Assembly (NCBI GenBank): GCA_020435965.1
Contig: JAGQYS010000059.1
Coordinates: forward strand, 1-64,000
Reading direction: 5' to 3'
Length of the DNA: 64,000 bases
DNA from: Flavobacteriaceae bacterium
Lineage (GTDB): Bacteria > Bacteroidota > Bacteroidia > Flavobacteriales > Flavobacteriaceae
Below, in pieces: positions 3,725 through 60,752 of this stretch; position 1 is the stretch's first letter, and each line of letters opens with the position of its first letter. The position numbers were made by a program, and so were the translations under genes. The notes under the pieces were generated by a model. That model was given only the letters and a program-made list of their open reading frames with translations, had not been told where the DNA came from and did not search any database.

Positions 3725-3734
3725 CCTCCTAACC

Positions 3735-3860
3735 GTCACTGCGAGGACGAAGGACGTGGCAGTCTCATGATACAACCGTCATTGCGAGGCGAAGCCGAAG
3801 CAATCTCATGAATCATAACAAGAGGCAGATTGCTTCAGCCTAAAGGCTTCGCAATGACGG
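3735..3860. repeat. Dispersed palindromic intergenic repeat (GTCATTGCGAGG type)
   Basis: Two units follow hsdR. The first (3735-3770, GTCACTGCGAGGACGAAGG..GGCAGTCTCATGA) is a degraded arm. The second (3776-3860) is a large imperfect inverted repeat: CCGTCATTGCGA...GAAGCAATCT pairs with AGATTGCTTC...TCGCAATGACGG. Related pieces occur at 52488-52520, 56127-56222 and 56474-56517. This kind of repeat is common between genes in Bacteroidetes; it may also act as a transcript-end hairpin for hsdR. Confidence 0.85.
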
Positions 3861-3939
3861 TTCAATGGCAATGACGTTCCACATTCCTCCCAATGTTTCT
3901 CATTTTTAAAATATAGGGTGCAACCAAAGATTCAATATC

Positions 3940-7455: not shown

Positions 7456-7747
7456 CCTATGAATAAAATCTTATTGTATCTCATTGATAAGTTTCTAACA
7501 AAAAAGTAAGGTGTAATAGCCAAAATATCAATAATTATCAGTATTTTAAAGACTTCAATTCTTGTTTTGTTTGTTGATAAAAAAGTGATGCTTACTGGGA
7601 GTTTTACTAAATAAGTAGAATGACCGATTTTAAGTATTTGTTACCATTAAATTGAAAATATTTTTTCTTTAAATAAAGAATTTATATTAAACTTAGAAAA
7701 GCCGACTGAATCTTTTCTTTGTAGCATTTAAATGAGGGCAAGAACAG

Positions 7748-7854
7748 CAACCGCATTATGTTTGTGGTTGTTTAATATTAAATAGCTTTGCAGAGGCAGA
7801 GCTATTACATGGAAATTTGAGGCGTCTAGTTTTTCTGCGATAGGCAACTCAAAT
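7748..7854 (+). ncRNA. Candidate structured leader or small RNA (three successive hairpins)
   Basis: The 560-bp gap between the lipoprotein and the kinase gene holds three consecutive helices: 7748-7755 with 7763-7770 (8 bp), 7781-7791 with 7796-7806 (11 bp, loop AGAG), and 7815-7821 with 7848-7854 (7 bp closing a 26-nt interior). The first two each contain one G-U pair. The remainder of 7456-8015 is AT-rich and shows no gene. No poly-U run directly follows, so simple terminators are unlikely, but no match to a known RNA family is claimed. Confidence 0.3.
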
Positions 7855-8015: not shown

Positions 8016-10292
8016 ATGAACATTTACATTACAATACTGTTAGAATTTTTACTTATTTCGTCAAGTGTTCTTTTGTTGTTTAGATTTAGGAGTAAAATAG
8101 GTTTAGCTCCACTCTATATTCTTTTAGGTGCTGTTCAATACATTCAGGCATTTTCTGGAACCATGATTAACTTTAAAGTTTTTGAAAAGTTTACCATTTA
8201 TCCAGGATCTGTTATTATGTTTTGTGCCGTTTTGTTTGCGGTATTGTTAATTTATATAAAAGAAGGAGTTTCCAGTGCTAGAACGCTTATTATTGGAATA
8301 ATCATTTCAAACTTTATCATATCTGTATTGTTTGAAATAACATATATACAAGAATTTACCTCACAGAACTTAAATGAGGCAGTGCCTACATCTATATTTT
8401 TAATAAATTATGAATATTTCATTACAGGAACTATTATTTTGCTGGTAGACTTTATTTTGATGGTTATTATCTATCAGTTTTTAGTTTCAAAAATCAGTAA
8501 TTTATATTTCTTTTTAGTGCTTTTCTTATCACTTTTCTTAGTTTTGATTTTCGATTCTTTAGCGTTTAATCTCATTCTAAAAATGAGATCAGGGGAATTG
8601 GTGAATTCGTTAATAGGTCATCTTATTGGGAAATCTGTTTCTGCGTTAATATTTTCTGTTATTTTATATCTTTATTTAAGGTTTATAGACCAAGAGAAAA
8701 GCAATGTGTCTTTTATAGCCAATCAAAACCGAGATATATTTTCTATAATTAGATATAGAAAAAGATACCTCGATCTTAAAGTTGAAAAAGCACAAGTTGA
8801 AAAAAAACTCACCTCACAAATTGAATCCACTTTAAACCACATCTCAGATGGTTTTGTATCGTTAGATACAAACTGGTGCTATACCTACATAAACATTAAA
8901 GCAGGAGAGCTTGTTGGAAGGTCACCAGAGAGTTTAATGGGAAAGCATATTTGGACAGAATTTCCAGAATTAGTTAATGATCCTTTTTATAAAGAATGCT
9001 ATAGAGCATCAGAGACCAAAGGAACCATATATTTTGAAAACTATTATAAACCATTTGATAAGTGGTTTGAAAGCAGGGTTTATCCATCTGAAGATGGACT
9101 GGCTATTTATTTTACGGATATCACAGAAAAAAGACAAGCCGAAACCAATAACCAAATGCTATTATCATTAATTGAAACAAGTGACGATTTTATAGGTTTA
9201 GCAACGTTAGAAGGCAAACCTGTTTATTTAAATGCCAAAGGAAGGCAATTGGTTGGATTAGATATAGATGAAGATTTGCCAAACTCTGTAGCAGATTTTT
9301 TTCCAGAAAATTATAGAGACAGCATATTAAATAAACATTTCTTAGATATACACGATAGCAACAAATGGAATGGTGAAGTTCAATTTAAAAACTTTAAAAC
9401 AGGCAATTTAATTCCAATAGAAATGTCTAGTTTTTTAATAAGAGACAACATCACCAACGAACCTATAGCATTAGGAAATGTAGCTACAGATATTACGGAA
9501 AGAAAAAGAACAGAAACAGAATTAAAAAAACATAAAAACAACCTAGAAGAGTTAGTAGAACTAAGAACATCTCAGTTAGAGAAAGAAAAAATAAAAGCAC
9601 AATCTGCTGATTTAATGAAATCTGCGTTTTTGGCAACCATGTCTCACGAACTAAGAACACCTATGAACTCAATTATAGGGTTTACAGGAATCTTATTAAA
9701 AGAGTATGCAGGACCATTAAATGAAGAACAAAAAAAGCAACTATCCATGGTTAAAACAAGTGGGCAGCATTTACTTGGTTTAATTAACGATATTTTAGAT
9801 ATTTCTAAAATTGAAGCAGGTAAATTAAAAGTGTCATTTGCACCATTTAATTACTTAACAACCTTAGAAAAAACAATTGATTTTTTATCTCCGCAAGCAG
9901 TAAAAAAAGGCCTTGTAATAGAAACCGAAATAACTGAATTGGAAATTATAATCAATAGCGATGAGAGAAGAGTTGAGCAAGTACTTTTAAATTTATTATC
10001 AAATGCTATAAAGTTTTCTGAAAAAGGAACCATTTTAGTTAAAGTAGATATTATTGAGAATTTGCTCGTTACACAGATAATTGACCAAGGTATCGGAATA
10101 AGCAAAAAAGACCTAAATAAATTATTTATGCCTTTTATACAACTCAATGGAGGGCTTAACAGAACACATGAAGGCACAGGTCTTGGTCTGGCCATTTGTA
10201 AAAGTTTAATTACTAAATTAGGTGGCTCAATTCATGTTAAAAGTAAAAAAGGAGAAGGGAGTAATTTTACATTTAAATTGCCAATTCAATAA
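8016..10292 (+). CDS. Membrane-bound PAS sensor histidine kinase
   Basis: 758 aa. Residues 1-225 hold about seven hydrophobic segments (a 7TM-type sensor module). A basic coiled linker (240-270) leads to two PAS domains (about 270-375 and 380-495, each ending in a DITE(K/R) signature), a coiled coil (500-530), a HisKA domain with phospho-acceptor H544 in SHELRTP, and an HATPase domain with N663 in the N box, DQGIGI at 690 and GTGLGL at 720. It should autophosphorylate in response to a membrane or PAS-detected signal. No receiver domain is fused, so the response regulators encoded directly downstream are the likely partners. A structured leader may precede it. Confidence 0.93.
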   Translation: MNIYITILLEFLLISSSVLLLFRFRSKIGLAPLYILLGAVQYIQAFSGTMINFKVFEKFTIYPGSVIMFCAVLFAVLLIYIKEGVSSARTLIIGIIISNFIISVLFEITYIQEFTSQNLNEAVPTSIFLINYEYFITGTIILLVDFILMVIIYQFLVSKISNLYFFLVLFLSLFLVLIFDSLAFNLILKMRSGELVNSLIGHLIGKSVSALIFSVILYLYLRFIDQEKSNVSFIANQNRDIFSIIRYRKRYLDLKVEKAQVEKKLTSQIESTLNHISDGFVSLDTNWCYTYINIKAGELVGRSPESLMGKHIWTEFPELVNDPFYKECYRASETKGTIYFENYYKPFDKWFESRVYPSEDGLAIYFTDITEKRQAETNNQMLLSLIETSDDFIGLATLEGKPVYLNAKGRQLVGLDIDEDLPNSVADFFPENYRDSILNKHFLDIHDSNKWNGEVQFKNFKTGNLIPIEMSSFLIRDNITNEPIALGNVATDITERKRTETELKKHKNNLEELVELRTSQLEKEKIKAQSADLMKSAFLATMSHELRTPMNSIIGFTGILLKEYAGPLNEEQKKQLSMVKTSGQHLLGLINDILDISKIEAGKLKVSFAPFNYLTTLEKTIDFLSPQAVKKGLVIETEITELEIIINSDERRVEQVLLNLLSNAIKFSEKGTILVKVDIIENLLVTQIIDQGIGISKKDLNKLFMPFIQLNGGLNRTHEGTGLGLAICKSLITKLGGSIHVKSKKGEGSNFTFKLPIQ

Positions 10293-10379
10293 TATAACTA
10301 TGTTAAAAGAAAATAAAAAGACAATTTTTATATTTATAAGTTAGCATTTTGACAATAAACTTAATAAGCAGATTTGTTT

Positions 10380-10754
10380 ATGAAACCAACAATATTAATA
10401 ATAGAAGATAATGAACAAAACATGTACATGTTGTCGTTTCTTCTAAAACAAAACAATTACAATGTCATAATGGCTTTTAATGGTATTGATGGGTTAAAAT
10501 TGGCACACGAAAACAACCCTGAAATTATTTTAATTGACATTCAGCTCCCAGATATGGATGGTTATGAAATTTGTAATAAATTACGTCATAACGGTCTATC
10601 AAAAAGTACAGTTATTATTGCAGTAACCTCATATGCTATGGGAGGAGATAAAGAAAAGGCTATAGATGCAGGCGCAGATGGGTATTTAGAAAAACCAATT
10701 AATCCAGAGACTTTTGTAAAACAAATGGAAAGCATTGTAAATGCAAAGAAATGA
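10380..10754 (+). CDS. Single-domain response regulator (CheY/DivK-like receiver)
   Basis: 124 aa, a bare receiver domain: acidic pocket E9-D10, phospho-acceptor D53 (LIDIQLPDMDG), the conserved Ser/Thr in AVTSYA and the Lys in YLEKPIN. An in-frame TTG lies 6 bp further up, but the ATG at 10380 is preferred. The sequence is DivK-like, lacking an output domain. Its end overlaps the next gene by 4 bp (ATGA), showing translational coupling with the sigma54 activator. Likely role is phosphotransfer or protein-protein signalling downstream of the kinase at 8016. Confidence 0.92.
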   Translation: MKPTILIIEDNEQNMYMLSFLLKQNNYNVIMAFNGIDGLKLAHENNPEIILIDIQLPDMDGYEICNKLRHNGLSKSTVIIAVTSYAMGGDKEKAIDAGADGYLEKPINPETFVKQMESIVNAKK

Positions 10755-13147
10755 ATAAAAAAACGATTTTAATAGTAGACGATACTTACGAAAATTTATA
10801 CTTATTAAGAGTCATACTTGAAGAAGCTGGATATCATGTAATAGAAGCCAATGATGGTAGGGAAGGGTTAAAAAAATTACATGAAAACAACCATGTAGAT
10901 CTTATTGTTTCTGACATTTTAATGCCAGTAATGGATGGCTATATGTTTTGTCAGGCATGTAAAAAAGATAAGTTGTTTAAAAACATACCGTTTGTTTTTT
11001 ACACCTCTACTTACACTGAAAAATTAGATGAAGACTTTGCGTTAAAATTAGGCGCAGCACAATTTTTGCGAAAACCAATAGATCATGATGAACTACTTTT
11101 TACTGTAAATGATATTTTTGATTCGGTAAAAAGCAAAGTAAAATACATTAAAAAAGTAAGAATATCTGAAGATGAAGTTTTAAAGCTTTACAGTGAAAGA
11201 CTCATTAATAAATTAGAGCAAAAAAATTTAGATCTTGGTCATGAAGTATTAGAACGACAAAAAGCCGAGCAATTATTAATTCAAAAAAATGAAATATTAG
11301 ATTTAATAGCTGTAAATACACCTTTAAATAAGATATTTGATCAGTTACTTTTAAATTTTGAATCCCATCACCCAAATTACTTAGGTGCCTTATCTTTATT
11401 AGATGAAGACGGCATACACCTAGATTTAATTTCAGCGCCATCAATGCCAAAAGCATACAATTTAGCTGTAAAACGAGGTGTAATTAATGAAAAAGCAGGC
11501 TCATGTGGTACAGCAGCATTTACTAAAAAACCCGTTATAGTTTCGGACATAAGTAAAAGTAAATTATGGGCAGATTATAAAGATGCAGCTCTAAAACATG
11601 ATCTGAAATCATGTTGGTCAATACCAATTATGTCAAAAAATGATACTGTTTTAGGCACTTTTGCAATTTATAGCAAATCTATAAGCACACCATCATTAGA
11701 AGATATCAGTGAACTTAACTTTGCTGTTAGTTTAGCCAAAATCGCAATTGAAAAATTTAGAATAGTTGAAGAAAACAGAAAAAAGGACGAGTCTTACAAG
11801 GCCTTAATAGACCAAGCAAGTGATGCAATACTAACTTATACACTTGATGGTAATATTTATAATTACAATAAAGCTTCATACAGTTCTCTTGGCTACACAG
11901 AACAAGAGTTTTTAACATTAAAAATACAAGATTTACTGGTTGGTGATATTGTTGAAAACCCTGAAATTCTTAATAAGATACAAAAAGAAGAGCATGTAAT
12001 TTTTGATAGGCAGTTTAAGCATAAAAACGGCTCCGTAATAGATGTGGAAATTTCAGCAAAATTACAGAAAGACGGGAAAATACTCGCTATTGCACGTGAT
12101 ATTACAGAATGGAAAAAGAATTTAAAAGAATTAAATATATTGCGAAAACAACTTGAGCAAGAAAACATTTACCTAAGAAATGAACTAGACTTGGTCTTTA
12201 ATTATGAAGAAATGGTTTATGGTAGTGTTGAATTTAGTGATGTGCTAACAGAAGTTGAAAAAGTCGCTCCAACCAATGCCACTGTGTTGCTTTTAGGAGA
12301 ATCAGGTACAGGCAAAGAGTTATTGGCAAGAGCTATTCATAATACAAGCAATCGTAATAACAAACCCTTAATAAAAGTAAACTGCTCAGCAATACCTAGA
12401 GAGCTTATTGAGAGTGAGTTGTTTGGACACAAAAAAGGATCGTTTACAGGTGCCTTTAATGACAAAATAGGGAAGTTTGAATTAGCAGATGGAGGTTCTT
12501 TGTTTTTAGATGAAATAGGCGAATTGCCTTTAGATATGCAACCTAAAATTTTAAGGTTTTTACAAGAGGGCGAAATTGAAGTGGTAGGAGGTACTGGACT
12601 CAAAAAGTTAGATGTAAGAGTTATAGCTGCTACAAATAGAAACCTTAAAGAGGAAATTACTAAAAAACAATTTAGGGAAGATTTATATTTCCGTCTTAAT
12701 GTATTCCCAATTGAAATTCCACCTTTACGACAAAGAAAAGATGATATTCCTTTATTGGTTGAGCATTTTGTAGATAAGTTTAATAAAGCTTACAGTAAAA
12801 ATATTAAGTATATATCCGATGAGGCGATGTCAAAATTAATAGATTATGAATGGCCTGGTAATATCAGGGAGCTAGAAAATTTAATTGAACGAGCCTCGAT
12901 CTTATCTACAAATGACACCTTGATTATTCCAGGATTCGGATCGTCCAGTAAAAAAATAAAATCCATAAACAGCACTAAGGACATGTCTTTAGATGCTGTG
13001 CAACGTAACCATATTCTTCACGTTTTAAAACAATGTGATTGGAAAATTAGCGGAGCAAATAGCGCATCAGAATTATTAGGTTTAAAACCAAGCACTTTGC
13101 GCGATAAAATGCAAAAACTTGGAGTGAAAAAACCAAACAAAAATTAA
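10751..13147 (+). CDS. Sigma54-dependent response regulator with REC-GAF-PAS-AAA-HTH architecture
   Basis: 798 aa. Domains in order: receiver (1-125, phospho-acceptor D55), coiled linker (140-190), GAF (about 185-335), PAS (about 345-455), AAA+ sigma54-interaction domain (about 485-710) and Fis-type HTH (about 750-793). In the AAA+ part Walker A is GESGTGKE at 516, Walker B LFLDEIGE at 584, and the sigma54-contact loop reads GSFTGA at 563 rather than canonical GAFTGA. It should remodel sigma54 RNA polymerase when phosphorylated. The extra GAF and PAS sensors between receiver and ATPase make it longer than NtrC-type activators. Translationally coupled to the single receiver upstream; targets are unknown. 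Confidence 0.93.
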   Translation: MNKKTILIVDDTYENLYLLRVILEEAGYHVIEANDGREGLKKLHENNHVDLIVSDILMPVMDGYMFCQACKKDKLFKNIPFVFYTSTYTEKLDEDFALKLGAAQFLRKPIDHDELLFTVNDIFDSVKSKVKYIKKVRISEDEVLKLYSERLINKLEQKNLDLGHEVLERQKAEQLLIQKNEILDLIAVNTPLNKIFDQLLLNFESHHPNYLGALSLLDEDGIHLDLISAPSMPKAYNLAVKRGVINEKAGSCGTAAFTKKPVIVSDISKSKLWADYKDAALKHDLKSCWSIPIMSKNDTVLGTFAIYSKSISTPSLEDISELNFAVSLAKIAIEKFRIVEENRKKDESYKALIDQASDAILTYTLDGNIYNYNKASYSSLGYTEQEFLTLKIQDLLVGDIVENPEILNKIQKEEHVIFDRQFKHKNGSVIDVEISAKLQKDGKILAIARDITEWKKNLKELNILRKQLEQENIYLRNELDLVFNYEEMVYGSVEFSDVLTEVEKVAPTNATVLLLGESGTGKELLARAIHNTSNRNNKPLIKVNCSAIPRELIESELFGHKKGSFTGAFNDKIGKFELADGGSLFLDEIGELPLDMQPKILRFLQEGEIEVVGGTGLKKLDVRVIAATNRNLKEEITKKQFREDLYFRLNVFPIEIPPLRQRKDDIPLLVEHFVDKFNKAYSKNIKYISDEAMSKLIDYEWPGNIRELENLIERASILSTNDTLIIPGFGSSSKKIKSINSTKDMSLDAVQRNHILHVLKQCDWKISGANSASELLGLKPSTLRDKMQKLGVKKPNKN

Positions 13148-13164
13148 CGGAATGCCGTTAATTT
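13141..13164 (+). terminator. Perfect 10-bp hairpin overlapping the activator stop codon
   Basis: AAATTAACGG (13141-13150), loop AATG, CCGTTAATTT (13155-13164). The hairpin includes the TAA stop. It is followed by A-rich rather than U-rich sequence on the plus strand, so it may stabilise the mRNA end rather than terminate efficiently. Confidence 0.4.
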
Positions 13165-13328
13165 ATAAAAAACACATAAGCACTGCACGGTATTTCGTGA
13201 CTATTGATTTCAGTAGTCATAAATTTTAAAATTACAACACGCTAGCTATAAGTAATTTACATAATAATTTCTTTTATATTTCTTTTTGGCATATCAATTG
13301 GATTAATCTTTCTATATGAAGCACAATT

Positions 13329-13742
13329 ATGAGAAATGTAGTGAGGTTTGATGAAATTGAATTTTGGGTTGACCAAAATATAATTTACTGTGATTTTAAT
13401 GCAGACTTGCTTGAAAGCTATCAAAAGGTAGATGTTGAGGAAATATTTTACAATGGTATTTCTATATTATCCAATGGTAAATACTTGCCAATTTTAATTA
13501 ATCTTGAAGATATTAGCAGTGCAAATGCAATTAAAATATTTAAGTTTTTATCAAATAGTACTATAGTTAAAGAAATTGTGCTTTCTAAAATATTTTTAGT
13601 TCGCTCAGTTGGTGTAAAGGTTGTGCTTTCATTATATAACCTAGTAGGTGACCCTGTTGTACCTATAAAAGTTTGTAATGACTTTAACTTGGCTGTTAAA
13701 TACTGCCATAAAGATTACAGTGCTTTTAACACAATAAGCTAA
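13329..13742 (+). CDS. STAS/SpoIIAA-like small protein, copy 1
   Basis: 137 aa, cytoplasmic, no signal peptide. It reads as one alpha/beta domain: an N-terminal strand pair (RFDEIEFWVDQNIIYCDF), a helix with ILSNGKYLPILINLEDI (residues 46-62), a helix, and a LSKIFLVRSVGVKVVLSLYNLV segment, resembling the STAS/SEC14-like (SpoIIAA-like) proteins widespread in Flavobacteriaceae. The next gene is a diverged paralogue with the same layout. Position behind a phosphorelay suggests an anti-anti-sigma-like or switch role, which is inference. An upstream gap of 181 bp separates it from the activator gene. Confidence 0.8.
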   Translation: MRNVVRFDEIEFWVDQNIIYCDFNADLLESYQKVDVEEIFYNGISILSNGKYLPILINLEDISSANAIKIFKFLSNSTIVKEIVLSKIFLVRSVGVKVVLSLYNLVGDPVVPIKVCNDFNLAVKYCHKDYSAFNTIS

Positions 13743-13752
13743 TCATGAACGG

Positions 13753-14169
13753 ATGAGTAAAATGATAAAATTTCATAATGCAATGTTTTGGACTGATGAT
13801 ACAGACATACTTTATTGTGAGTTTACTAATCAGAAACAAAACCATAAATTGGATGTTGATTTTGTGAAATTTTATATAGATGCTATTACCAATTTGTGTA
13901 ATGGTAAGGCCATGCCATTTCTTATTGATTTAAGAGGTTCTCGTGGTACTTTTTCAATTTCAGCAGCTAAATTGTTGGCTAAAGACTCAGAGCTAATTAA
14001 GTTAAGGATTTCAGAGTCTTTTGTAACCAATACAATAGGAATTAAATTGTTGATTACTACCTATAAGCGGTTGTATGACCCAATTACTCCTTTTGGCATA
14101 TTTAACAATATAGAAGATGCAAAAATATTTTGTAACGCTTACAAAAATGAAGTTGAAGAAAGTGTTTAA
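13753..14169 (+). CDS. STAS/SpoIIAA-like small protein, copy 2
   Basis: 138 aa, ten bases after copy 1. Matching landmarks are the FHNAMFWTDDTDILYCEF start, the NLCNGKAMPFLIDLRG core (compare ILSNGKYLPILINLED in copy 1), the LRISESFVTNTIGIKLLITTYKRL segment and the DPITPFGIFNNIEDAKIFC end (compare DPVVPIKVCNDFNLAVKYC). The pair therefore arose by tandem duplication but has diverged strongly, implying separate roles or heterodimerisation. The two hairpin-RNA copies follow immediately in the same direction, starting 12 bp after the stop. Confidence 0.8.
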   Translation: MSKMIKFHNAMFWTDDTDILYCEFTNQKQNHKLDVDFVKFYIDAITNLCNGKAMPFLIDLRGSRGTFSISAAKLLAKDSELIKLRISESFVTNTIGIKLLITTYKRLYDPITPFGIFNNIEDAKIFCNAYKNEVEESV

Positions 14170-14180
14170 ATAATATTTAG

Positions 14181-14235
14181 CTCATTGCAAACCCAAGGGC
14201 GATAGGAGCGCAGACCTAAAACCCTTGGCAGTGAG
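14181..14235 (+). ncRNA. Tandem structured RNA element, copy 1
   Basis: A 55-nt three-helix hairpin. P1 pairs 14181-14187 with 14229-14235 (7 bp, one G-U), P2 pairs 14193-14199 with 14222-14228 (7 bp) and P3 pairs 14203-14206 with 14215-14218, closing the octaloop AGCGCAGA. A 5-nt CAAAC bulge separates P1 and P2 on the 5' side only. No poly-U tail follows, so it is not an intrinsic terminator. It sits between convergent genes and may be a 3' UTR element or a separate small RNA; strand is assigned from pairing and neighbours. Confidence 0.6.
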
Positions 14236-14285
14236 TTAATTTATAATTATATTAAAAAAAGAATACAATTAGTTTGATTAATGAT

Positions 14286-14339
14286 CTCATTGCAAATCAA
14301 GGGTGATAGGAGCGCAGACCTAAAGCCCTTGGCAGTGAG
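14286..14339 (+). ncRNA. Tandem structured RNA element, copy 2
   Basis: A 54-nt second copy of the preceding element, 50 bp downstream. P1 and the loop segment GATAGGAGCGCAGACCTAAA are identical to copy 1. The changes are in or next to P2: one deletion, two C-to-T and one A-to-G. P2 keeps pairing because one C-G pair becomes U-G. Identical loops with helix-only drift suggest selection on the RNA. Possibly related to one of the flavobacterial orphan RNA motifs, but this was not tested. Confidence 0.6.
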
Positions 14340-14419
14340 TTTCTTAAATAAGCCCAATTAGTTTTGTGTTGAAGTAAATAGAGTAGAAGCTACTTTGCAA
14401 AATGCTCAAACTTCTAGAA

Positions 14420-15088
14420 TTAATTTTGTTCCTTATAAATAGTCAAGCTTGCTTTAAAGCCAGTTCGAATAAGCCATTTGTTTGAAGCCAACAAATTGCC
14501 ATCTTGATCAAACACTTGTAGTTGTGCGGTATTCGGACTTGAAGTTCCTTCGTTTAAAGCCACAAAGTTTATGGTGTTGTAGCCTTCAACCAAATCTACA
14601 TCAATCACAAAGAAATCGCCTTTTAAAACAATGTTTGGATGAATAACAGCATTGTTCAGCATGAGTTTTATTCTATCGCCATCAACATACTCGTGATCTC
14701 GGCATTTTATTACAATGACTTTTGATTTTGTTGAGAGCTCACCTAAATTATAGTCTTTACTAAATTGAGCTAAGTCTTTTTGGTCTTCTCCAAATTTCTG
14801 TTTAATCTTCCAGGTAGGTTGTACCAAATCACTTTTTTGCACCATGTTTACACCAGATTTTTTCTTGAAAGGGTCACTAAGTTCTGTGAAATTAATTGTT
14901 GGACGTATGTTTTTATTGGTTAAGCCAGAAATTGGAGCTATTTTTAATCTAGCATCTAAGGGTAGTTCTATTTTTACACTATCTATGGCTTCAATTCTAA
15001 AACCATTATTACGCATATCAATTTGTGCATTGGCATGATGGAAAAAGATGCTGGACAATAGTAAAATGGTAATAATTATAAACCTCAT
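14420..15088 (-). CDS. Secreted protein of unknown function
   Basis: 222 aa with a clear Sec signal peptide (residues 1-21, cleavage after HANA). The mature part is mainly beta; residues about 130-215 look like an Ig/carbohydrate-binding-like sandwich (VIVIKCRDHEYVDGDRIKLML ... NTINFVALNEG). It lies 140 bp after the MoxR-linked operon in the same direction and has its own TATATTTG element, so it may be transcribed independently. No enzymatic motif is visible. Periplasmic or outer-membrane-associated location is inferred from the signal peptide alone. Confidence 0.75.
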   Translation of the reverse strand: MRFIIITILLLSSIFFHHANAQIDMRNNGFRIEAIDSVKIELPLDARLKIAPISGLTNKNIRPTINFTELSDPFKKKSGVNMVQKSDLVQPTWKIKQKFGEDQKDLAQFSKDYNLGELSTKSKVIVIKCRDHEYVDGDRIKLMLNNAVIHPNIVLKGDFFVIDVDLVEGYNTINFVALNEGTSSPNTAQLQVFDQDGNLLASNKWLIRTGFKASLTIYKEQN

Positions 15089-15113
15089 AAACTCGTTAGT
15101 GCATTTAACACTT

Positions 15114-15121
15114 CAAATATA
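15114..15121 (-). promoter_or_regulatory. Candidate -7 promoter element for the secreted protein gene
   Basis: On the minus strand TATATTTG lies 26 bp upstream of the ATG at 15088. No good TTG -33 box is seen at the expected distance, so the promoter is only a candidate. Confidence 0.4.
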
Positions 15122-15228
15122 AACCTTTGTAAAAAAGTACATCATAATTACTTGGTATTAACGTAACTTTCTTACAATTTTATATCTCTTTAACAAAAAG
15201 TGTTCCATTATGTTGGTTTTAAAGAGAT

Positions 15229-16977
15229 TTATAGTTTTGGTTCAAGCCATAAATAACCAATGCTTAAAATGAACACTAAATAAAACCAAACTAAAGATAA
15301 TGGTTGGCGTGTGGTAAACTGTTTATTGGTTACAGCTTTTGCAGTGCTAAATTGCCTTTTATTTGCTTTAGTTGTATTGTATGATTTTAGAGATTTCCAT
15401 TTGGTTGTATCAGTCACATAATAACGAAAAACTTGAGTTGTGTCCTGTGCTAAACTCAGTTTTTGCCAGCCTGTTGTTTTAGGATATGTTTTGCCTTTCC
15501 AGAGGTGACTGTTATTAAGATCATTAATAAGAGGAATAAGGTCGTTCTGCTCACTTAAAGATTTGGGTTTGTCTATTTGTGTTCTAAGCTTAAACTTTAA
15601 AGGTTCATCTTTAAAAATCACTGAGCTACTTGTTTCCCAATGTACAATAGGAATTTGCTTTTTGCTTATAGCATTAATGGTTTCAGACCAAAGCGTTTGG
15701 TACACCTTATCATTGCCATTAAGAATAAGTTGATAAGTATTTTCAAAAGCTGAAAGTCCAATTTTTCCTTGCCCAAGGGTTTTGCTAGCAGTAAGTATTT
15801 GATTGTTTACTTCAAAAATACTCTGTAATGTAAAGTTTGGTTTTAAATGTAAAGGACTTTTTGTAAAACCTATTTTTGGCCAAGCTTCCATATTAATTTT
15901 AGTAATATTATCTGCTTGAACATTAAAATCGGTTAGATAATTAACAATTCCATTAAATACTGTGTTCGATTGAATAAAAACACCTAGTCCATCATTTCTA
16001 ACAGCTTTTTCTAAACTGCTTTTCTGATTTCTACCTAGATTTCTAAACGATTGTGCATCTATAATAACCAAATCAAAGTTTTGTAAAGTCTTCTCAGAAA
16101 AATCAACTGCTGTTTTGGTGTTTAAATTAAAGTATTCATACTTAAATTTCCCTCTGGTTACCTGACTTCGTACTGTAAGTTGATGTCCTTTTTCGGCAAG
16201 ATAATTTTTTAAATATTTGGTTTCAAACGTTGGAAATCCATTAATGATTAAAATGCTTAAGTCACTTTCTGGCACAACGCGAATCCCGATTGGGTTTGAA
16301 TTGATGAGGTTGTTCAATGAATCTTTTTCAATCAAATGGTATTCGTAATTACCAATCACATTCAGTTGCGTTGATAATTTAAACGGTTGCGTTGAATCGG
16401 TTGAAAAAACAATGGAGTCCAAACCTGTATTTGCAGGACTTTCCAGAATAATTTTTCTTCCTTTTTTTGCATTGGCATAAAGTCCTTCAATATTTATTGT
16501 ATTTCCTACTACCTGTTCTTGATCAAACTTCAATTGAACAATGCCAGAAGCTTTAGGGTTTCCTAAATAAGATACATTTAAACTATCCAATTGATAAAAA
16601 TCAAAAGGTGCTATGCCTTCACCTAAAATGTAAATGGTTGATGGTTTTTTGTTTGGGTTTATAAAGGATTCATTAACCTCATAGTTTAATACCTGAATCT
16701 TTTTGTTTGAATTTTTTATGCTATCCAGTTTGTTTACATCATATCCTTTGGTAAGAACAACCATTTTATAGGTATCAAGCTGTGAAACCACTAATGGCTT
16801 CAATACAATGAATGCTAAAGATGTAAGTGCAACAGAGGCAAGTACCAGTTTTAAATACAGTTTGGATTTGTTGGGTTGCTGCCATTCTTTCCAAGCAAAT
16901 ACAAGCCAAAGCAGTATTGCAAAAATAACAACGTACCAAAACCAATGGTTATTTATAAAGCTCAAGCTATCAATCAT
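15229..16977 (-). CDS. Membrane protein with glutamine-amidotransferase-like domain (MoxR/BatA operon)
   Basis: 582 aa from the ATG at 16977; a TTG 9 bp further up is less likely. Two transmembrane helices near residues 10-30 and 40-62 and one near the C-terminus (about 555-573) bracket a large periplasmic part. Within it, the SDLSILIINGFPTFETKYLKNYL region (about 255-330) with VIIDAQSF resembles the class I amidotransferase-like alpha/beta fold found in membrane proteins of MoxR-DUF58-BatA clusters. No catalytic Cys-His-Glu triad is evident, so it is probably non-enzymatic. It overlaps the DUF4175 gene by 8 bp, showing translational coupling. Confidence 0.75.
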   Translation of the reverse strand: MIDSLSFINNHWFWYVVIFAILLWLVFAWKEWQQPNKSKLYLKLVLASVALTSLAFIVLKPLVVSQLDTYKMVVLTKGYDVNKLDSIKNSNKKIQVLNYEVNESFINPNKKPSTIYILGEGIAPFDFYQLDSLNVSYLGNPKASGIVQLKFDQEQVVGNTINIEGLYANAKKGRKIILESPANTGLDSIVFSTDSTQPFKLSTQLNVIGNYEYHLIEKDSLNNLINSNPIGIRVVPESDLSILIINGFPTFETKYLKNYLAEKGHQLTVRSQVTRGKFKYEYFNLNTKTAVDFSEKTLQNFDLVIIDAQSFRNLGRNQKSSLEKAVRNDGLGVFIQSNTVFNGIVNYLTDFNVQADNITKINMEAWPKIGFTKSPLHLKPNFTLQSIFEVNNQILTASKTLGQGKIGLSAFENTYQLILNGNDKVYQTLWSETINAISKKQIPIVHWETSSSVIFKDEPLKFKLRTQIDKPKSLSEQNDLIPLINDLNNSHLWKGKTYPKTTGWQKLSLAQDTTQVFRYYVTDTTKWKSLKSYNTTKANKRQFSTAKAVTNKQFTTRQPLSLVWFYLVFILSIGYLWLEPKL

Positions 16978-23818: not shown

Positions 23819-25135
23819 CTAAACAGCGTCAGATAAACTCGTAAAGGTAAAGTCTCTTACCTTCATGTATGGAATTAAGTTTCCATCAATACGAACTTGC
23901 TGACCAAGTGTTTCAAGGTTATTAAGCATGATAATAGGGCTTTCATTAAATCTGAAGTTCTTAACAGGGTGTTTGATTTTTCCGTTTTCAATATAAAACG
24001 TTCCATCACGAGTAAGACCAGTAAACAGTAGTGTTTGAGGGTCTACACCACGTATGTACCACAGCCTTGTTACTAGAATTCCTTTTTTTGTATCTTTTAT
24101 TAAATCTTCTAATGATGCAGTACCACCTTCCATAATAAAGTTTGATGGTCCAGGAACTGCCTCAACCCCTTTTTCTTTAGCCCAAAAACGATCATAGGCT
24201 AAATTTTTAACCACGCCATTTTCAATCCAACTCATCTTTTTTAAAGCTTGTCCAGCACCATTCCAAGTAGCTGTTGGTACATCTGGATGTAAAGGATCTG
24301 ACCAAATATTGACACGCTCATCTACAATTTTTTGACCTAGTTTTGTTCCACCACCTTCTTTACTCATAAAGCTTCTGCCTTCATCAGCAGTACGAGCATT
24401 TAAAGCGCCTCCCATATTTCCTAATAAACCTATTGAGGCAGCAGGCTCAAGAATCACTGTATATTTTCCAGGTTCTATAGCTTTAGCTTCTCTAGACATA
24501 AGCGCTTTATCTATTGCTACTTTTGAAGCTTCAGCAGCGTCAAATTTATTGACATCATTAAAATCTCTAGAAACCCAACCAGAGCCAGTACCATCATTAC
24601 TTCTCATGGTCACGGTAAAACTGATATCTGTAGATTTATTGTAAGCGAAGAGACCTTTAGAGTTCATCATTGCTGAAAAACCAGCAGAGTCATTTAAAAA
24701 ACCAGCAGCAGTAACATCGTTAGCAGCAGCAGGCTCAATACTGCTATTGGCTACCATGGCACGATATTCAGGTGTGATTTTGGCAGTAGCTTCACTATAT
24801 GTTATAGCGTCATCGTAAGATTGTGGACCTAGAGGCTCCATAAACTCTGGATTTTCTGGTGATATTTTAGCGAGTTCTTCAGCTCTTTGTACAACTTTTC
24901 GAAGTGATTCATCATCAAATTCATCAATACTTGCAGAGCCAGATTTTTTTCCAAAACTGGATTGTACGGATAGATTTTGATTAGATCTGTGTCCTGAGGT
25001 AGAAACGGTATTTCGTGCATAACGAATGTTGCCACTTTCGCTTCCTCCTAAATTTATTTCGCAAGTATCAGCTGTAGAATAGCTAAGCGCTTTCTCTAAA
25101 ATCTGTCTTGCTTCTTCTTTTGTATATATTGCCAT
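23819..25135 (-). CDS. TldE/PmbA-like metalloprotease-family protein
   Basis: 438 aa. It matches the TldD/PmbA family along its length (start AIYTKEEARQILEKALSYS; core PGKYTVILEPAASIGLLGNMGGALNARTADEGRSFM; end NGKIKHPVKNFRFNESPIIMLNNLE). It has no HExxxH motif, which fits the non-catalytic TldE partner. The TldD gene lies 33 bp upstream in the same direction. In E. coli TldD/TldE form a heterodimeric protease that processes antitoxin CcdA and peptide toxin precursors; the substrate here is unknown. Unlike its partner it has no signal peptide, which is odd for a heterodimer. Confidence 0.9.
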   Translation of the reverse strand: MAIYTKEEARQILEKALSYSTADTCEINLGGSESGNIRYARNTVSTSGHRSNQNLSVQSSFGKKSGSASIDEFDDESLRKVVQRAEELAKISPENPEFMEPLGPQSYDDAITYSEATAKITPEYRAMVANSSIEPAAANDVTAAGFLNDSAGFSAMMNSKGLFAYNKSTDISFTVTMRSNDGTGSGWVSRDFNDVNKFDAAEASKVAIDKALMSREAKAIEPGKYTVILEPAASIGLLGNMGGALNARTADEGRSFMSKEGGGTKLGQKIVDERVNIWSDPLHPDVPTATWNGAGQALKKMSWIENGVVKNLAYDRFWAKEKGVEAVPGPSNFIMEGGTASLEDLIKDTKKGILVTRLWYIRGVDPQTLLFTGLTRDGTFYIENGKIKHPVKNFRFNESPIIMLNNLETLGQQVRIDGNLIPYMKVRDFTFTSLSDAV

Positions 25136-30185: not shown

Positions 30186-33100
30186 ATGTTTTGCTATTTT
30201 TTGAAGTCTTTTTTTAAAAGGGTTTTATTTTTCAGTCTATTTCTTCTGAGTGCTAGCTCAGGATTTGCCCAAACTCCAATTTTTTCACCTGCAATGTCCA
30301 TCACAGAATTTGGTTCTGTTAACTCGCCTGCTAACGAGGGTGTAAGTAAAATTATAGACGGATCAACATCAACTAAATATTTGGATTTTAATTTTAATGA
30401 TGGAATGGGCTTTACGGTTGATTTGGGTGGAAATTCAAAAATAGCCACTTCAATATCTATTACAACGGCAAATGATGTTCCAGGTAGAGACCCTCAAAAC
30501 TTTACTGTTTTCGGATCTAACGATGCCAATACTTTTACACAAATAGCAACAGGAACGATTCCATGTGTTGGCACTAGGTTTCACCAAAGAACTTTTAATT
30601 TTAGTAACTCCACTTCCTATAAATACTACAGGGTAAATTTCACAACACAATGTGCTGCAGAAAACAGTATTCAGTTAGCAGAAGTACAATTATATACATT
30701 ATCTCCTACCTTTAGCCACGATTTAGTTCAGTCTGGTTACAATACCATAATGGGAGTTGTTTTTAATGAAGATGGTACAAAAATGTTTGTTTGGGAAAAA
30801 CGTGGTCATATCTATGTTTCCAACTGGAATGGATCATCGTATGTTAAACAAGCAACACCAGTTTTAGATATTTCTGATGAAGTAGGCGATTGGAGAGATT
30901 TTGGTTTTCAAAGTATTGCCTTGGATCCTGATTTTGAAACCAATGGATTAATATACATGTACTATATGGTCGATAGAGAGCACCTCATGAACTATGGAAC
31001 CCCTCAATATGATCCAAACGATAATGACTATTATGAAGCAACAATAAGCAGATTAACACGTTATAAATTAAATATTGGAAGCAGTCCATTAACTACAGAT
31101 TACAATTCTAGAACCGTACTTTTAGGAGAGTCAGTTTCAACAGGAGTACCATTAACACACGAATCGCATGCAGGAGGAACTGTAATTTTTGCCAATGATG
31201 GTACTTTATTGGTTTCAACGGGAGATAATGCAAGTTATTCTTCAACAGATGTTGGAAGTGCAAGTGAAACATATTGGCAACAAGCCATCAATGATGGTAT
31301 TATGCGACCTGAAGAAAATGTTGGGGCTTTTAGAAGTCAAATGATAACTTCGCTTTGTGGAAAAGTATTACGCTTAGATCCAGATACAGGTGATGGTATC
31401 CCTTCAAACCCTCATTATAATGGATCAAACCCAAGATCTCCAGAATCAAGAATGTGGGCAATGGGCTTACGCCATCCCTTTAGAATGTCCATTCAACCTG
31501 GCAGTGGTAGTACCAATCCAGCCGATGGTGACCCTGGAATTATTCATGTGGCTGATGTTGGTTGGGGAACGTGGGAAGATTTACATATTTTTGATAAAGG
31601 TGGTTTAAATGGTGGTTGGCCTCTTTTTGAAGGACAAACACAACTCAATAGTTATTATAATAGCGGAACAACCAATCCTGATGAAGGCAATGCCTTGTTT
31701 AGAGACAACTGTCCGCAGCCAACAAATTGGACTGATAATGCAGATCCAGCATTAAGACGATATGTACATGACAGACCAGAAGTAGCTTGGAAACATGGTG
31801 GTACAAATGAGGCTAGAGTGCCTTGGTTTAACGGCACAATACCAACAGATCCAAGAGTTGGTGTTTCTGGTTCGCCAACAACAGGTATTCAATTTAGAGG
31901 AAATACAGCTATTGCAGGTGTATATATTGAAGGTGATGCATTAGGAAGTAGTATGACTGGAAAATATTTGTTTACAGATTATGTAAGAAATTGGATTAAT
32001 GTTGCAACATTAACAGATGGTTCTCAAAATTGGATTAGCGATATTTCAGAATTAGCACCAATAAATACTGGAGCAGGGATAGTCCACATGATGCAAAACC
32101 CATTGGATGGTTTTGTTTATTATGTCAATATATACAATGGTGAATTACGTAGAATTTCATTTGTTGGACCAGCTTGGACTAACGAGCCGAATGATATGAC
32201 TGTAGAATGTGATGGAACTTTAGATCCTGGAGGTGCTTTTGCTACTTGGCTCAACAGTTTTTCTGGGACTGTGTCTTGCGGAAATGCTACAGTAACGCAC
32301 AACAGCTCTGGCTTGAGTGATTTATGTGGTGCAACAGGTTCAGAAACTGTAACGTTTACGCTATCTGATGAATGCGGAAATATAATAACCAAAGACGCTA
32401 CATTTACGATAGCAGACACAACAGGCCCAAGCTTCAATGAAACACTTCCATCAGATGTTACCGTAGAATGTGATGCCATTCCAGCAGCAGCGACCTTAAC
32501 GGCAAGTGACAGTTGCGGTAGTGCCACGGTAATCTTTGGGGAAAGCTCTACGGCTGGATCATGTGCAAACGAAGAGGTCATTACCAGAACATGGACAGCA
32601 ACAGATGCTTGTGGCAACGACACGGTTCACGTGCAAACCATAACAGTAGAGGACAACACAGGCCCAAGCTTCAATGAAACGCTTCCATCAGATGTTACCG
32701 TAGAATGTGATGCCATTCCAGCAGCAGCGACCTTAACGGCAAGTGACAGTTGCGGTAGTGCCACGGTAATCTTTGGAGAAAGCTCTACGGCTGGATCATG
32801 TGCAAACGAAGAGGTCATTACCAGAACATGGACAGCAACAGATGCTTGTGGCAACGACACGGTTCACGTGCAAACCATAACAGTAGAAGATAACACAGCT
32901 CCAACGTGGATAGCTGAACCATCAGATTATACGTTTTCTTGTGATGGCATATCAGATCCAGCAGATGCATTTAATACGTGGTTGGCTAGTTTTTCTGGAG
33001 AAGATACTTGTGGTACTGCAACAGTTTCAAATGATAATACAGGTTTGAGTTATGATTGTGATTCAGTTGGAACTGAAACTGTTACGTTTACGTTGACTGA

Positions 33101-33398
33101 TTTATGCGGAAATAATATTAGTAAGCAAGTGACGTTTACAGTAGAAAATACACTTGGAGTTGAATCAGAATTTATTGAAGAAATTAAAATATTTCCAAAC
33201 CCAGCTATTAATAGTGTTACTATATCAGGGTTAAAATCTGATAGTAAAGTATTGATTTATGATATATTAGGAAAACAAGTTAAAAATTTATCAGTTCAAA
33301 ATAAAGTTGCTTTTGGTTTAGACTTGCCTTCTGGAATATATTTAATTAAGATTTTCGAGAACGAAAAATCAACGATTAAAAAGTTGATTATTAAGTAG
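30186..33398 (+). CDS. Secreted sugar-dehydrogenase-like propeller protein with discoidin, Ig-like repeats and T9SS sorting tail
   Basis: 1070 aa. Signal peptide about 1-28 (ends SSGFAQ). F5/8 type C (discoidin) domain about 30-168. A PQQ-type glucose/sorbosone dehydrogenase-like six-bladed propeller about 175-660 (LFTDYVRNWINVATL, HESHAGGTVIFANDG, MGLRHPFRM). Then HYR/Ig-like cysteine-paired repeats about 665-985, two of them near-identical (79 aa each). Residues about 998-1070 are a type A T9SS domain (IKIFPNPAINSVTI ... GIYLIKI). The protein should be exported by type IX secretion and held at the surface. A strong bidirectional terminator follows. Redox activity toward sugars is a family inference; no quinone ligands were verified. 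Confidence 0.92.
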   Translation: MFCYFLKSFFKRVLFFSLFLLSASSGFAQTPIFSPAMSITEFGSVNSPANEGVSKIIDGSTSTKYLDFNFNDGMGFTVDLGGNSKIATSISITTANDVPGRDPQNFTVFGSNDANTFTQIATGTIPCVGTRFHQRTFNFSNSTSYKYYRVNFTTQCAAENSIQLAEVQLYTLSPTFSHDLVQSGYNTIMGVVFNEDGTKMFVWEKRGHIYVSNWNGSSYVKQATPVLDISDEVGDWRDFGFQSIALDPDFETNGLIYMYYMVDREHLMNYGTPQYDPNDNDYYEATISRLTRYKLNIGSSPLTTDYNSRTVLLGESVSTGVPLTHESHAGGTVIFANDGTLLVSTGDNASYSSTDVGSASETYWQQAINDGIMRPEENVGAFRSQMITSLCGKVLRLDPDTGDGIPSNPHYNGSNPRSPESRMWAMGLRHPFRMSIQPGSGSTNPADGDPGIIHVADVGWGTWEDLHIFDKGGLNGGWPLFEGQTQLNSYYNSGTTNPDEGNALFRDNCPQPTNWTDNADPALRRYVHDRPEVAWKHGGTNEARVPWFNGTIPTDPRVGVSGSPTTGIQFRGNTAIAGVYIEGDALGSSMTGKYLFTDYVRNWINVATLTDGSQNWISDISELAPINTGAGIVHMMQNPLDGFVYYVNIYNGELRRISFVGPAWTNEPNDMTVECDGTLDPGGAFATWLNSFSGTVSCGNATVTHNSSGLSDLCGATGSETVTFTLSDECGNIITKDATFTIADTTGPSFNETLPSDVTVECDAIPAAATLTASDSCGSATVIFGESSTAGSCANEEVITRTWTATDACGNDTVHVQTITVEDNTGPSFNETLPSDVTVECDAIPAAATLTASDSCGSATVIFGESSTAGSCANEEVITRTWTATDACGNDTVHVQTITVEDNTAPTWIAEPSDYTFSCDGISDPADAFNTWLASFSGEDTCGTATVSNDNTGLSYDCDSVGTETVTFTLTDLCGNNISKQVTFTVENTLGVESEFIEEIKIFPNPAINSVTISGLKSDSKVLIYDILGKQVKNLSVQNKVAFGLDLPSGIYLIKIFENEKSTIKKLIIK
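32424..32897 (+). repeat. Near-identical 237-bp in-frame tandem duplication
   Basis: Copy 1 at 32424-32660 and copy 2 at 32661-32897, encoding two 79-aa Ig-like modules. Only a few substitutions were seen (for example AAACACTTCC versus AAACGCTTCC, and CTTTGGGG versus CTTTGGAG), so the duplication is recent or is being homogenised. The outer flanking Ig-like modules are far more diverged. Confidence 0.92.
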
Positions 33399-33422
33399 TG
33401 ATTTAAAATAAATTACTTTTTA

Positions 33423-33463
33423 AAAGATGAGATTCAAATTGTATTAATTTGAATCTCATCTTT
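33423..33463. terminator. Strong bidirectional intrinsic terminator
   Basis: An 18-bp perfect stem, 33423-33440 with 33446-33463, loop GTATT. T-rich sequence follows on the plus strand and a run of T also follows on the minus strand, so it can serve both convergent genes (ends at 33398 and 33569). Confidence 0.85.
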
Positions 33464-33568
33464 ATTTTTATTGTTCTGTTTTTTAATATTTGTTTTTAAA
33501 TTATATGAATCCTGTCCAAGAGCATTGATGCACTTAGATATTATTTTATTAGAGTAATTTGAAGTTAC

Positions 33569-35315: not shown

Positions 35316-35363
35316 AAGTTATCTCTTAGTTTTATTAGTTAGTTAGTTTATATGAGATAATGA

Positions 35364-35394
35364 AAAAGCCACTCATTTGAGTGGCTTTTCTTTT
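35364..35394. terminator. Bidirectional intrinsic terminator between the small membrane operon and dnaN
   Basis: AAAAGCCACTC (35364-35374), loop ATTT, GAGTGGCTTTT (35379-35389), followed by C and TTTT on the plus strand. The mirrored A run gives a T run on the minus strand for dnaN (stop at 35410). Confidence 0.85.
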
Positions 35395-35409
35395 GTAGTA
35401 AATATTTAC

Positions 35410-42258: not shown

Positions 42259-42271
42259 GTTTTAGGATTTC

Positions 42272-42402
42272 GTTTAACGGTCTCGGCTATGAACAGTTGC
42301 GTGGTTTGGCACGGACTTTTGCAAGTACACGACAAGCTGAAAATTCCGCAGGAATTTTCAGGATAAGCCCGTAATAGCAATTGTTTATAGCCAATGTTGG
42401 GT
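42272..42402 (+). repeat. AttC-like recombination-site structure, left boundary of the ParDE cassette
   Basis: A 131-bp element. It begins with GTTTAAC (42272-42278, fits RYYYAAC) and ends with GTTGGGT (42396-42402, fits GTTRRRY). Inside, 16 bp (42285-42300) pair with 42377-42392 with only two G-U pairs. The centre holds an 11-bp perfect hairpin 42337-42361 with loop GCA. Similar sequences with an AATTCCGCAGGAATT-like core and an AAGCCCGTAATAGC-like stretch are frequent between Bacteroidetes genes as far as I recall; their function is not established. The arrangement matches integron attC architecture but no integrase is in the window. Confidence 0.55.
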
Positions 42403-42409
42403 GTAGTTT

Positions 42410-56126: not shown

Positions 56127-56222
56127 GGTTATTGCGAGGCTGGCGCTTACTGTCAATAGAAGCAATCCCATGATAGGTGGCGAGAGGCAGATTGCTTCAG
56201 CCTAAGGGTTTCGCAATGACAT
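56127..56222. repeat. Dispersed palindromic repeat, second full copy
   Basis: GGTTATTGCGAGGC... to ...TTTCGCAATGACA, arms 56127-56170 and 56188-56222, with GAAGCAATCCCATGA and GGCAGATTGCTTCAGCC inside. It resembles 3776-3860 but with a diverged left arm. It lies in the 636-bp gap after the beta-lactamase-fold gene. Confidence 0.8.
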
Positions 56223-60691: not shown

Positions 60692-60723
60692 AAGATTTAG
60701 GAATTACTTTCAAACAATTTATT

Positions 60724-60752
60724 AAAAGCATCACTATTTGTGGTGCTTTTTT
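60724..60752. terminator. Bidirectional intrinsic terminator
   Basis: AAAAGCATCAC (60724-60734), loop TATTT, GTGGTGCTTTT (60740-60750), one G-U pair, T run on the plus strand. It lies between the convergent M28 and MFS genes and overlaps the MFS stop codon. Confidence 0.8.

Follow-up and report, generated by a model that had tools for sequence, protein, structure and literature searches.

Tandem bulged hairpins in the convergent gap after a pair of DUF7793-like genes in one flavobacterial genus

Introduction

What do two near-identical hairpins do in the short gap between the last gene of a regulatory cluster and the convergent gene that faces it? The question is raised by a 64-kb stretch of Flavobacteriaceae DNA (hereafter, the window; its genome is G000), for which an original prediction described a tandem pair of compact hairpin RNAs and likened them to riboswitch or protein-binding designs. 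We analyzed the fold, conservation, relatives and gene context of this pair and weighed the readings that these data allow.

Results

Architecture of the twin hairpins

The pair consists of two direct copies, 104 to 105 nt apart, with cores of 55 nt (copy 1) and 54 nt (copy 2), or about 59 nt each with flanks. Both lie inside a 250-nt gap that runs from a DUF7793 stop codon (ends at 14169) to the 3′ end of a convergent gene (14420), as originally described, and helix P1 starts 11 nt, rather than the predicted 12 bp, after that stop codon. The features of the gap are as follows:

14181..14235, + strand: hairpin copy 1, a bulged stem-loop (z −5.24)
14181-14188/14228-14235, + strand: copy 1 helix P1, then bulge AAACC at 14189-14193
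14194-14199/14222-14227, + strand: copy 1 helix P2, then internal loop 14200-14202/14219-14221
14203-14206/14215-14218, + strand: copy 1 helix P3, closing the octaloop 14207-14214
14239..14283, + strand: AT-rich linker separating the copies, differing from the sister genome at 3 of 45 nt
14286..14339, + strand: hairpin copy 2, a bulged stem-loop (z −4.59)
14286-14293/14332-14339, + strand: copy 2 helix P1, then bulge AAAT at 14294-14297
14298-14303/14326-14331, + strand: copy 2 helix P2, then U.G 14304/14325
14307-14310/14319-14322, + strand: copy 2 helix P3, closing the octaloop 14311-14318
14340..14345, + strand: TTTCTT, a weak U-rich tail directly after copy 2

Each copy is predicted to form helices P1 (8 bp, one U.G), P2 (6 bp) and P3 (4 bp), with a 5′ asymmetric bulge between P1 and P2 (AAACC, 5 nt, in copy 1 and AAAU, 4 nt, in copy 2), a 3 × 3 internal loop between P2 and P3, and an apical octaloop, AGCGCAGA, that is identical in both. 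Alignment and folding thus bear out the two copies, three helices, asymmetric bulge and shared octaloop of the original prediction. The cores agree in 51 of 55 alignment columns, with octaloop and P3 identical letter for letter; the differing columns (14, 15, 22 and 43, column 14 being a one-base gap) are all unpaired, with a hypergeometric p of 0.011 that is biased in favor of this outcome because the structure was derived from the same two copies. A C-G pair had been said to become U-G with pairing kept; this is incorrect, as the bases at columns 22 and 43 are C.A in the first copy and U.G in the second, with no compensatory change. Covariation between the two copies scores zero, with 18 of 19 pairs invariant and the 19th unpaired in one copy. 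C.A+ and U.G pairs are similar in shape, and the pair at columns 22/43 could on that account be kept, a single change being no evidence either way.

Folding strength and local conservation

Against dinucleotide shuffles, the RNA folding z scores are −5.24 (copy 1) and −4.59 (copy 2), with 0 of 200 shuffles as stable, and the two copies fold better on the + strand (−26.1 and −27.0 kcal/mol) than on the − strand (−22.6 and −20.1 kcal/mol). In a scan of 31,970 overlapping 62-nt stretches covering both strands of the window, the twin hairpins take second and third place after overlaps are merged. The most stable stretch, in the long gap upstream of a histidine kinase gene, comprises two adjacent strong hairpins (7745-7815) unrelated to the twin hairpins. 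Folded whole, region 14170-14360 reaches −67.6 kcal/mol with long-range pairs versus −56.1 kcal/mol when pairing is confined to 70 nt; we set this long-range fold aside as evidence, since it is a consequence of having two palindromes.

Between the window and its sister genome G002, a single genome pair, the hairpins differ at 0 of 118 nt and the rest of the gap at 9 of 132 (Fisher p = 0.0038). Local third codon positions differ at 16 of 299 sites, a rate at which 118 unchanged nt would arise with a probability of 0.0015. The neighboring DUF7793 gene likewise shows few changes (6 of 417), so recent recombination or exchange could contribute. The two copies can be told apart, and the same two occur in both genomes, so the duplication likely predates the split of the two species. 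These comparisons support an element that folds strongly and is conserved locally, placed behind the cluster's last gene.

Gene neighborhood and predicted sigma54 control

The cluster upstream of the hairpins, and the gene that closes the gap, are arranged as follows:

8016-10292, upstream of the hairpins: VUPS-PAS histidine kinase (Pfam)
10374-10754, upstream of the hairpins: lone receiver (Pfam)
10751..13147, + strand: NtrC-type regulator with receiver, GAF, PAS, sigma54-activation and Fis-type DNA-binding domains
13147-13158 and 13187-13198, + strand: two ACGGNATNNCGT palindromes, predicted activator binding sites
13287..13302, + strand: predicted sigma54 −24/−12 site TGGCATATCAATTGGA, with similar sites in the same place in four other genomes
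13329..13742, + strand: first DUF7793-like gene, 22.8 bits, below the Pfam cut-off of 26
13753..14169, + strand: second DUF7793 (STAS-like) gene, PF25056, 40.4 bits against a cut-off of 26
14420..15088, − strand: convergent gene without a Pfam match, closing the gap; also present in G003

"STAS-like" is the label of the original prediction; Pfam lists DUF7793 as unknown, and a limited literature search found no paper on it. A further DUF7793-like sequence, matched in two pieces, lies at a contig end of the same genome (G000:C92:27-330).

TGGCATATCAATTGGA resembles a sigma54 −24/−12 promoter, with GG instead of GC at −12. Sites of this type precede the DUF7793 gene(s) in five genomes (the window, G002, G042, G011 and, weaker, G047) and score 8 to 9 of 12; since the window holds 67 sites scoring at least 9 on its two strands, the weight of the site lies in its recurrence in place. 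The ACGGNATNNCGT palindromes stand 90 to 140 bp upstream of it, and the motif matches 4 times within the window, at 3 distinct positions, versus 0.09 expected; by eye, similar palindromes occur in the gaps before the DUF7793 genes of G002, G042, G011 and, weaker, G047. The terminator-like scan matches at 13141-13199 are these same palindromes. This arrangement points to sigma54 control of the DUF7793 genes by the upstream NtrC-type regulator, and the combination of a sigma54 site with paired ACGGNATNNCGT-like palindromes before DUF7793 in five genomes makes this predicted regulator-target link directly testable. Passages of PMC9723704 describe mapped sigma54 promoters with −24/−12 elements in Flavobacterium psychrophilum.

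The operon ends differently in other genera. In G042, G047 and G011, representing three of these, the gene after DUF7793 overlaps it and encodes PAS domains, whereas in the genus of the window no PAS gene follows and the hairpins appear 11 nt past the stop codon instead; the hairpins thus stand where the operon stops. The hairpin model finds no match in these three genomes, near the DUF7793 genes or in the 5 to 8 kb around them. Furthermore, among convergent operon ends, that of G011 lacks a hairpin of similar strength (110 nt fold at −18.7 kcal/mol) and that of G042 has just one of moderate strength (−19.0 kcal/mol, about 100 nt downstream), which argues that a capping or termination role is not general to these operons.

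Searches for relatives

Rfam 15 at gathering scores gives 0 matches in the 64-kb window, including to the Flavo-1 motif (RF01705) that the original prediction had singled out for comparison; at E values up to 10, region 14100-14420 has seven weak matches (best E 0.21), none of them to Flavo-1. A covariance model built from the two copies was run on 397 genomes of the family, 395 of the order, 395 of the phylum and 4 of the genus (G000, G001, G002 and G003); these sets overlap, all but the genus set are drawn from larger groups, and the large searches used Infernal's stricter filters. Matches near 89 bits occur only in G000 and in the same-genus G002, at the same locus, and the next best scores 26.4 bits. 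In its own genome (90% complete), strong matches fall only at the two known copies, which speaks against the mobile repeat that the original prediction had named as its refutation; weak matches there are the opposite strand of the copies, at ~20 bits, plus a single other partial match of 13.3 bits (E 8.5). Within the genus, hairpins and DUF7793 genes go together: both are present in G000 and G002, and neither was found in G003 (97% complete) or G001 (62% complete). In G003, 6 nt separate the convergent gene from the end of a LacI-family gene.

The weak matches elsewhere do not resemble true copies. The model matches in other genomes, all rejected, score 15.9 to 26.4 bits against 89 and come from the family (G152 with two loci, G271, G277, G378, G062, G069, G184 and G380) and from the order and phylum (G737 and G958); alignments were inspected for 8 of the 9 weak family loci and for G737 and G958. 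The best of them, in G152 (E 6.8e-4 for one genome, 397 having been searched), lies inside a gene, and the first G152 locus, G271 (these two being the family loci, out of nine, with open reading frames listed) and G737 fall inside long open reading frames. The G958 match adjoins a second, weaker match within a repeat array and shares about 14 letters of GGNGCGCAGACCNAAA, which by rough estimate is expected by chance several times per 395 genomes; its GC-rich palindromes, moreover, look self-complementary by eye. That genome, of the same phylum, carries tandem arrays of such palindromes (GCCGGGGTG...CACCCCGGC) at L041 1420-1800. Among the genomes of 84,980 species, one genome per species, the pattern GCAAA-N6-16-AGGAGCGCAGACCT occurs at eight loci: one (L025) is the contig of G002, and we take the remaining seven, at 13.6 to 23.4 bits, as chance. 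Three weak matches in G007, G008 and G039 correspond to the AT-rich linker, not the hairpins. Two pattern scans of viral contigs return one weak match each (13.6 and 16.8 bits), a search of these contigs with the second DUF7793 protein returns none, and BLAST against phages and plasmids (7 and 5 records) recovers the AT-rich linker and its edges only. As far as searched, the element is known from one genus only; the conservation anticipated by the original prediction is found in one sister species, with zero covariation and no match in other genera.

Discussion

A proposed cap at the 3′ end of the DUF7793 message

We tentatively favor, as the most probable of the readings weighed here, a double hairpin in a 3′ untranslated region that caps the mRNA and helps to end it. 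Under this model, the mRNA of the two STAS-like genes would be made from the predicted sigma54 promoter, driven by the upstream NtrC-type regulator; the twin hairpins would form in its 3′ untranslated end, where they would protect the message against 3′-end decay and help to stop transcription before the convergent gene, the duplication providing two barriers in series. The placement 11 nt after the stop codon and in a convergent gap, the better fold of the + strand and the absence of change in the sister species are all consistent with such a role, whereas a structure serving stability alone would not need its loop and internal loop to match almost exactly from copy to copy. Should the capping role prove correct, the pair would be one more lineage-specific 3′-end structure, useful in being duplicated and easily deleted.

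The original prediction held that the hairpins are not terminators, on the ground that no U run follows. This is overstated: copy 1 is followed by TTAATTTAT and copy 2 by TTTCTT, weak U-rich tails in a window of 35% GC, and these tails together with the terminator-like position count against the exclusion. The contrast with clear terminators does hold. A U-run terminator consensus scan lists none on the + strand of the gap, and the clear terminators of the window (gaps 33399-33568, 35316-35409 and 60692-60750, and after gene 23819-25135) have short loops, uninterrupted stems and U-runs, so the twin hairpins are not of this kind, nor do they combine the uninterrupted GC-rich stem, loop of 3 to 8 and direct U-run of a canonical intrinsic terminator.

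Alternative readings

The bulge, internal loop and octaloop might instead be read as sequence, as in a tandem protein-binding or regulatory RNA whose two copies bind a dimer, with the 3′ untranslated region set free as a regulatory RNA or behaving as one; this possibility is appreciably less probable than the capping role but deserves to be weighed. The letter-identical octaloop and P3, the four differing columns that avoid helices and the 0 of 118 changes in the sister genome fit such a site, and according to passages of PMC2864571 the pan motif likewise consists of simple hairpins in tandem, for which binding of a dimeric protein has been proposed, although upstream of its genes, where the twin hairpins are downstream. 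The GCGC of each octaloop is self-complementary and could kiss (computed loop-loop duplex, −8.1 kcal/mol), an idea that is weak because 31% of random 8-mers at the same GC are expected to hold a 4-nt palindrome. The binding reading is further weakened by the lack of an Rfam match, of covariation and of convincing relatives beyond one genus. Its most specific form, a new genus-specific tandem RNA site at which a dimeric protein, perhaps one of the encoded STAS-like proteins, would contact the two loops and adjust its own operon's output from the 3′ end, is a long shot. The riboswitch or aptamer analogy of the original prediction has no support: the same Rfam, covariation and relative searches are negative, and a riboswitch is disfavored because the pair, 11 nt after the last stop codon and before a convergent gene, has nothing downstream to control. 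We consider a separate small RNA gene, transcribed from a promoter of its own, improbable. The unit is compact and structured with room for a promoter, and the + strand has sigma70-type sites at 14225-14253, which begins within copy 1 and matches at 10 of 12 positions, and in the linker at 14240-14269 (9 of 12), but the generic scan, which does not model the Bacteroidota promoter, gives 24 sites in 13000-15500 versus 12.8 in shuffles; the pair has no clean terminator of its own, and its tight placement at the stop codon fits a 3′ untranslated region better.

We consider it unlikely, but still a serious competitor, that the pair is a low-copy palindromic DNA repeat, a REP- or MITE-like remnant that inserted into the convergent gap, became duplicated and plays no part as RNA. 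The copies are near-palindromic and were not found outside the sister species, passages of PMC3733652 place REPs mostly downstream of coding regions, and two other convergent gaps of the window hold large palindromes (3730-3900 and 42259-42409). Such a repeat is harder to reconcile with only two strong copies in a genome that is 90% complete, with none convincing outside the sister species, with hairpins that stayed unchanged while the surrounding spacer changed, and with copy ends (GCTC/TCTC and GAGTT) that show no GTAG or CGTC and, by eye, no target duplication. Finally, chance folding of ordinary spacer, which the presence of the element in only two genomes might suggest, is very improbable given z scores of −5.2 and −4.6, the shuffle result, the duplication and the conservation.

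Other repeats of the window deserve mention in their own right. The palindrome at 3730-3900 is of the GTCATTGCGAGG type and recurs in part at 56159 and on two further contigs; we rejected kinship of the twin hairpins to it, as only TCATTGC is shared by eye and this string occurs 22 times in the window, the copies included. The convergent gap at 42259-42409 folds as one large palindrome (GGCTATGAACAGTTGC...GCAATTGTTTATAGCC), and within a 1070-aa open reading frame (30186-33398) a 237-nt unit is repeated in tandem at 32410-32883, its two copies being 97% alike.

Comparison with known systems

We regard the element as an ordinary-looking, unclassified 3′-end structure. CRISPR repeats are regular, 24 to 47 nt long and accompanied by cas genes; here there are two copies of about 59 nt, and no cas gene is found by Pfam among the six flanking genes (8016-15088). 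The Flavo-1 motif (RF01705) is also a structured RNA of Bacteroidota, but the hairpins do not match it. The GUCCY-hairpin, which has no Rfam number in the table of PMC2864571, was compared by name only; neither copy contains GUCC. REP repeats share with the twin hairpins a palindrome between convergent genes and downstream of a coding region, but, as passages of PMC3733652 describe them, are 20 to 40 bp long, high in copy number and tagged by GTAG or CGTC; the element studied here, at about 55 nt, one locus, direct copies and no tag, falls outside that description. The pan motif is likewise a simple bulged tandem hairpin with a proposed dimeric protein site, but according to PMC2864571 it has two bulged A residues and lies upstream of pantothenate genes in three phyla, whereas the twin hairpins have a 4- to 5-nt asymmetric bulge and lie downstream of STAS-like genes in one genus.

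Finally, according to PMC8355165, a study of 13 genomes, clusters of hairpins close to stop codons act as terminators, mostly lack U trails and are common where transcripts end. The hairpins of those clusters are less than 15 bases apart, whereas the twin stems are separated by 50 nt and copy 2 lies more than 80 nt past the stop; the twin hairpins also differ in being bulged, with 8-nt loops, and near-identical copies of each other. The reported clusters most often comprise two hairpins, mostly within 80 nt of the stop, and the likeness to the pair described here is that more than one hairpin stands near a stop codon and that a U-run is not required.
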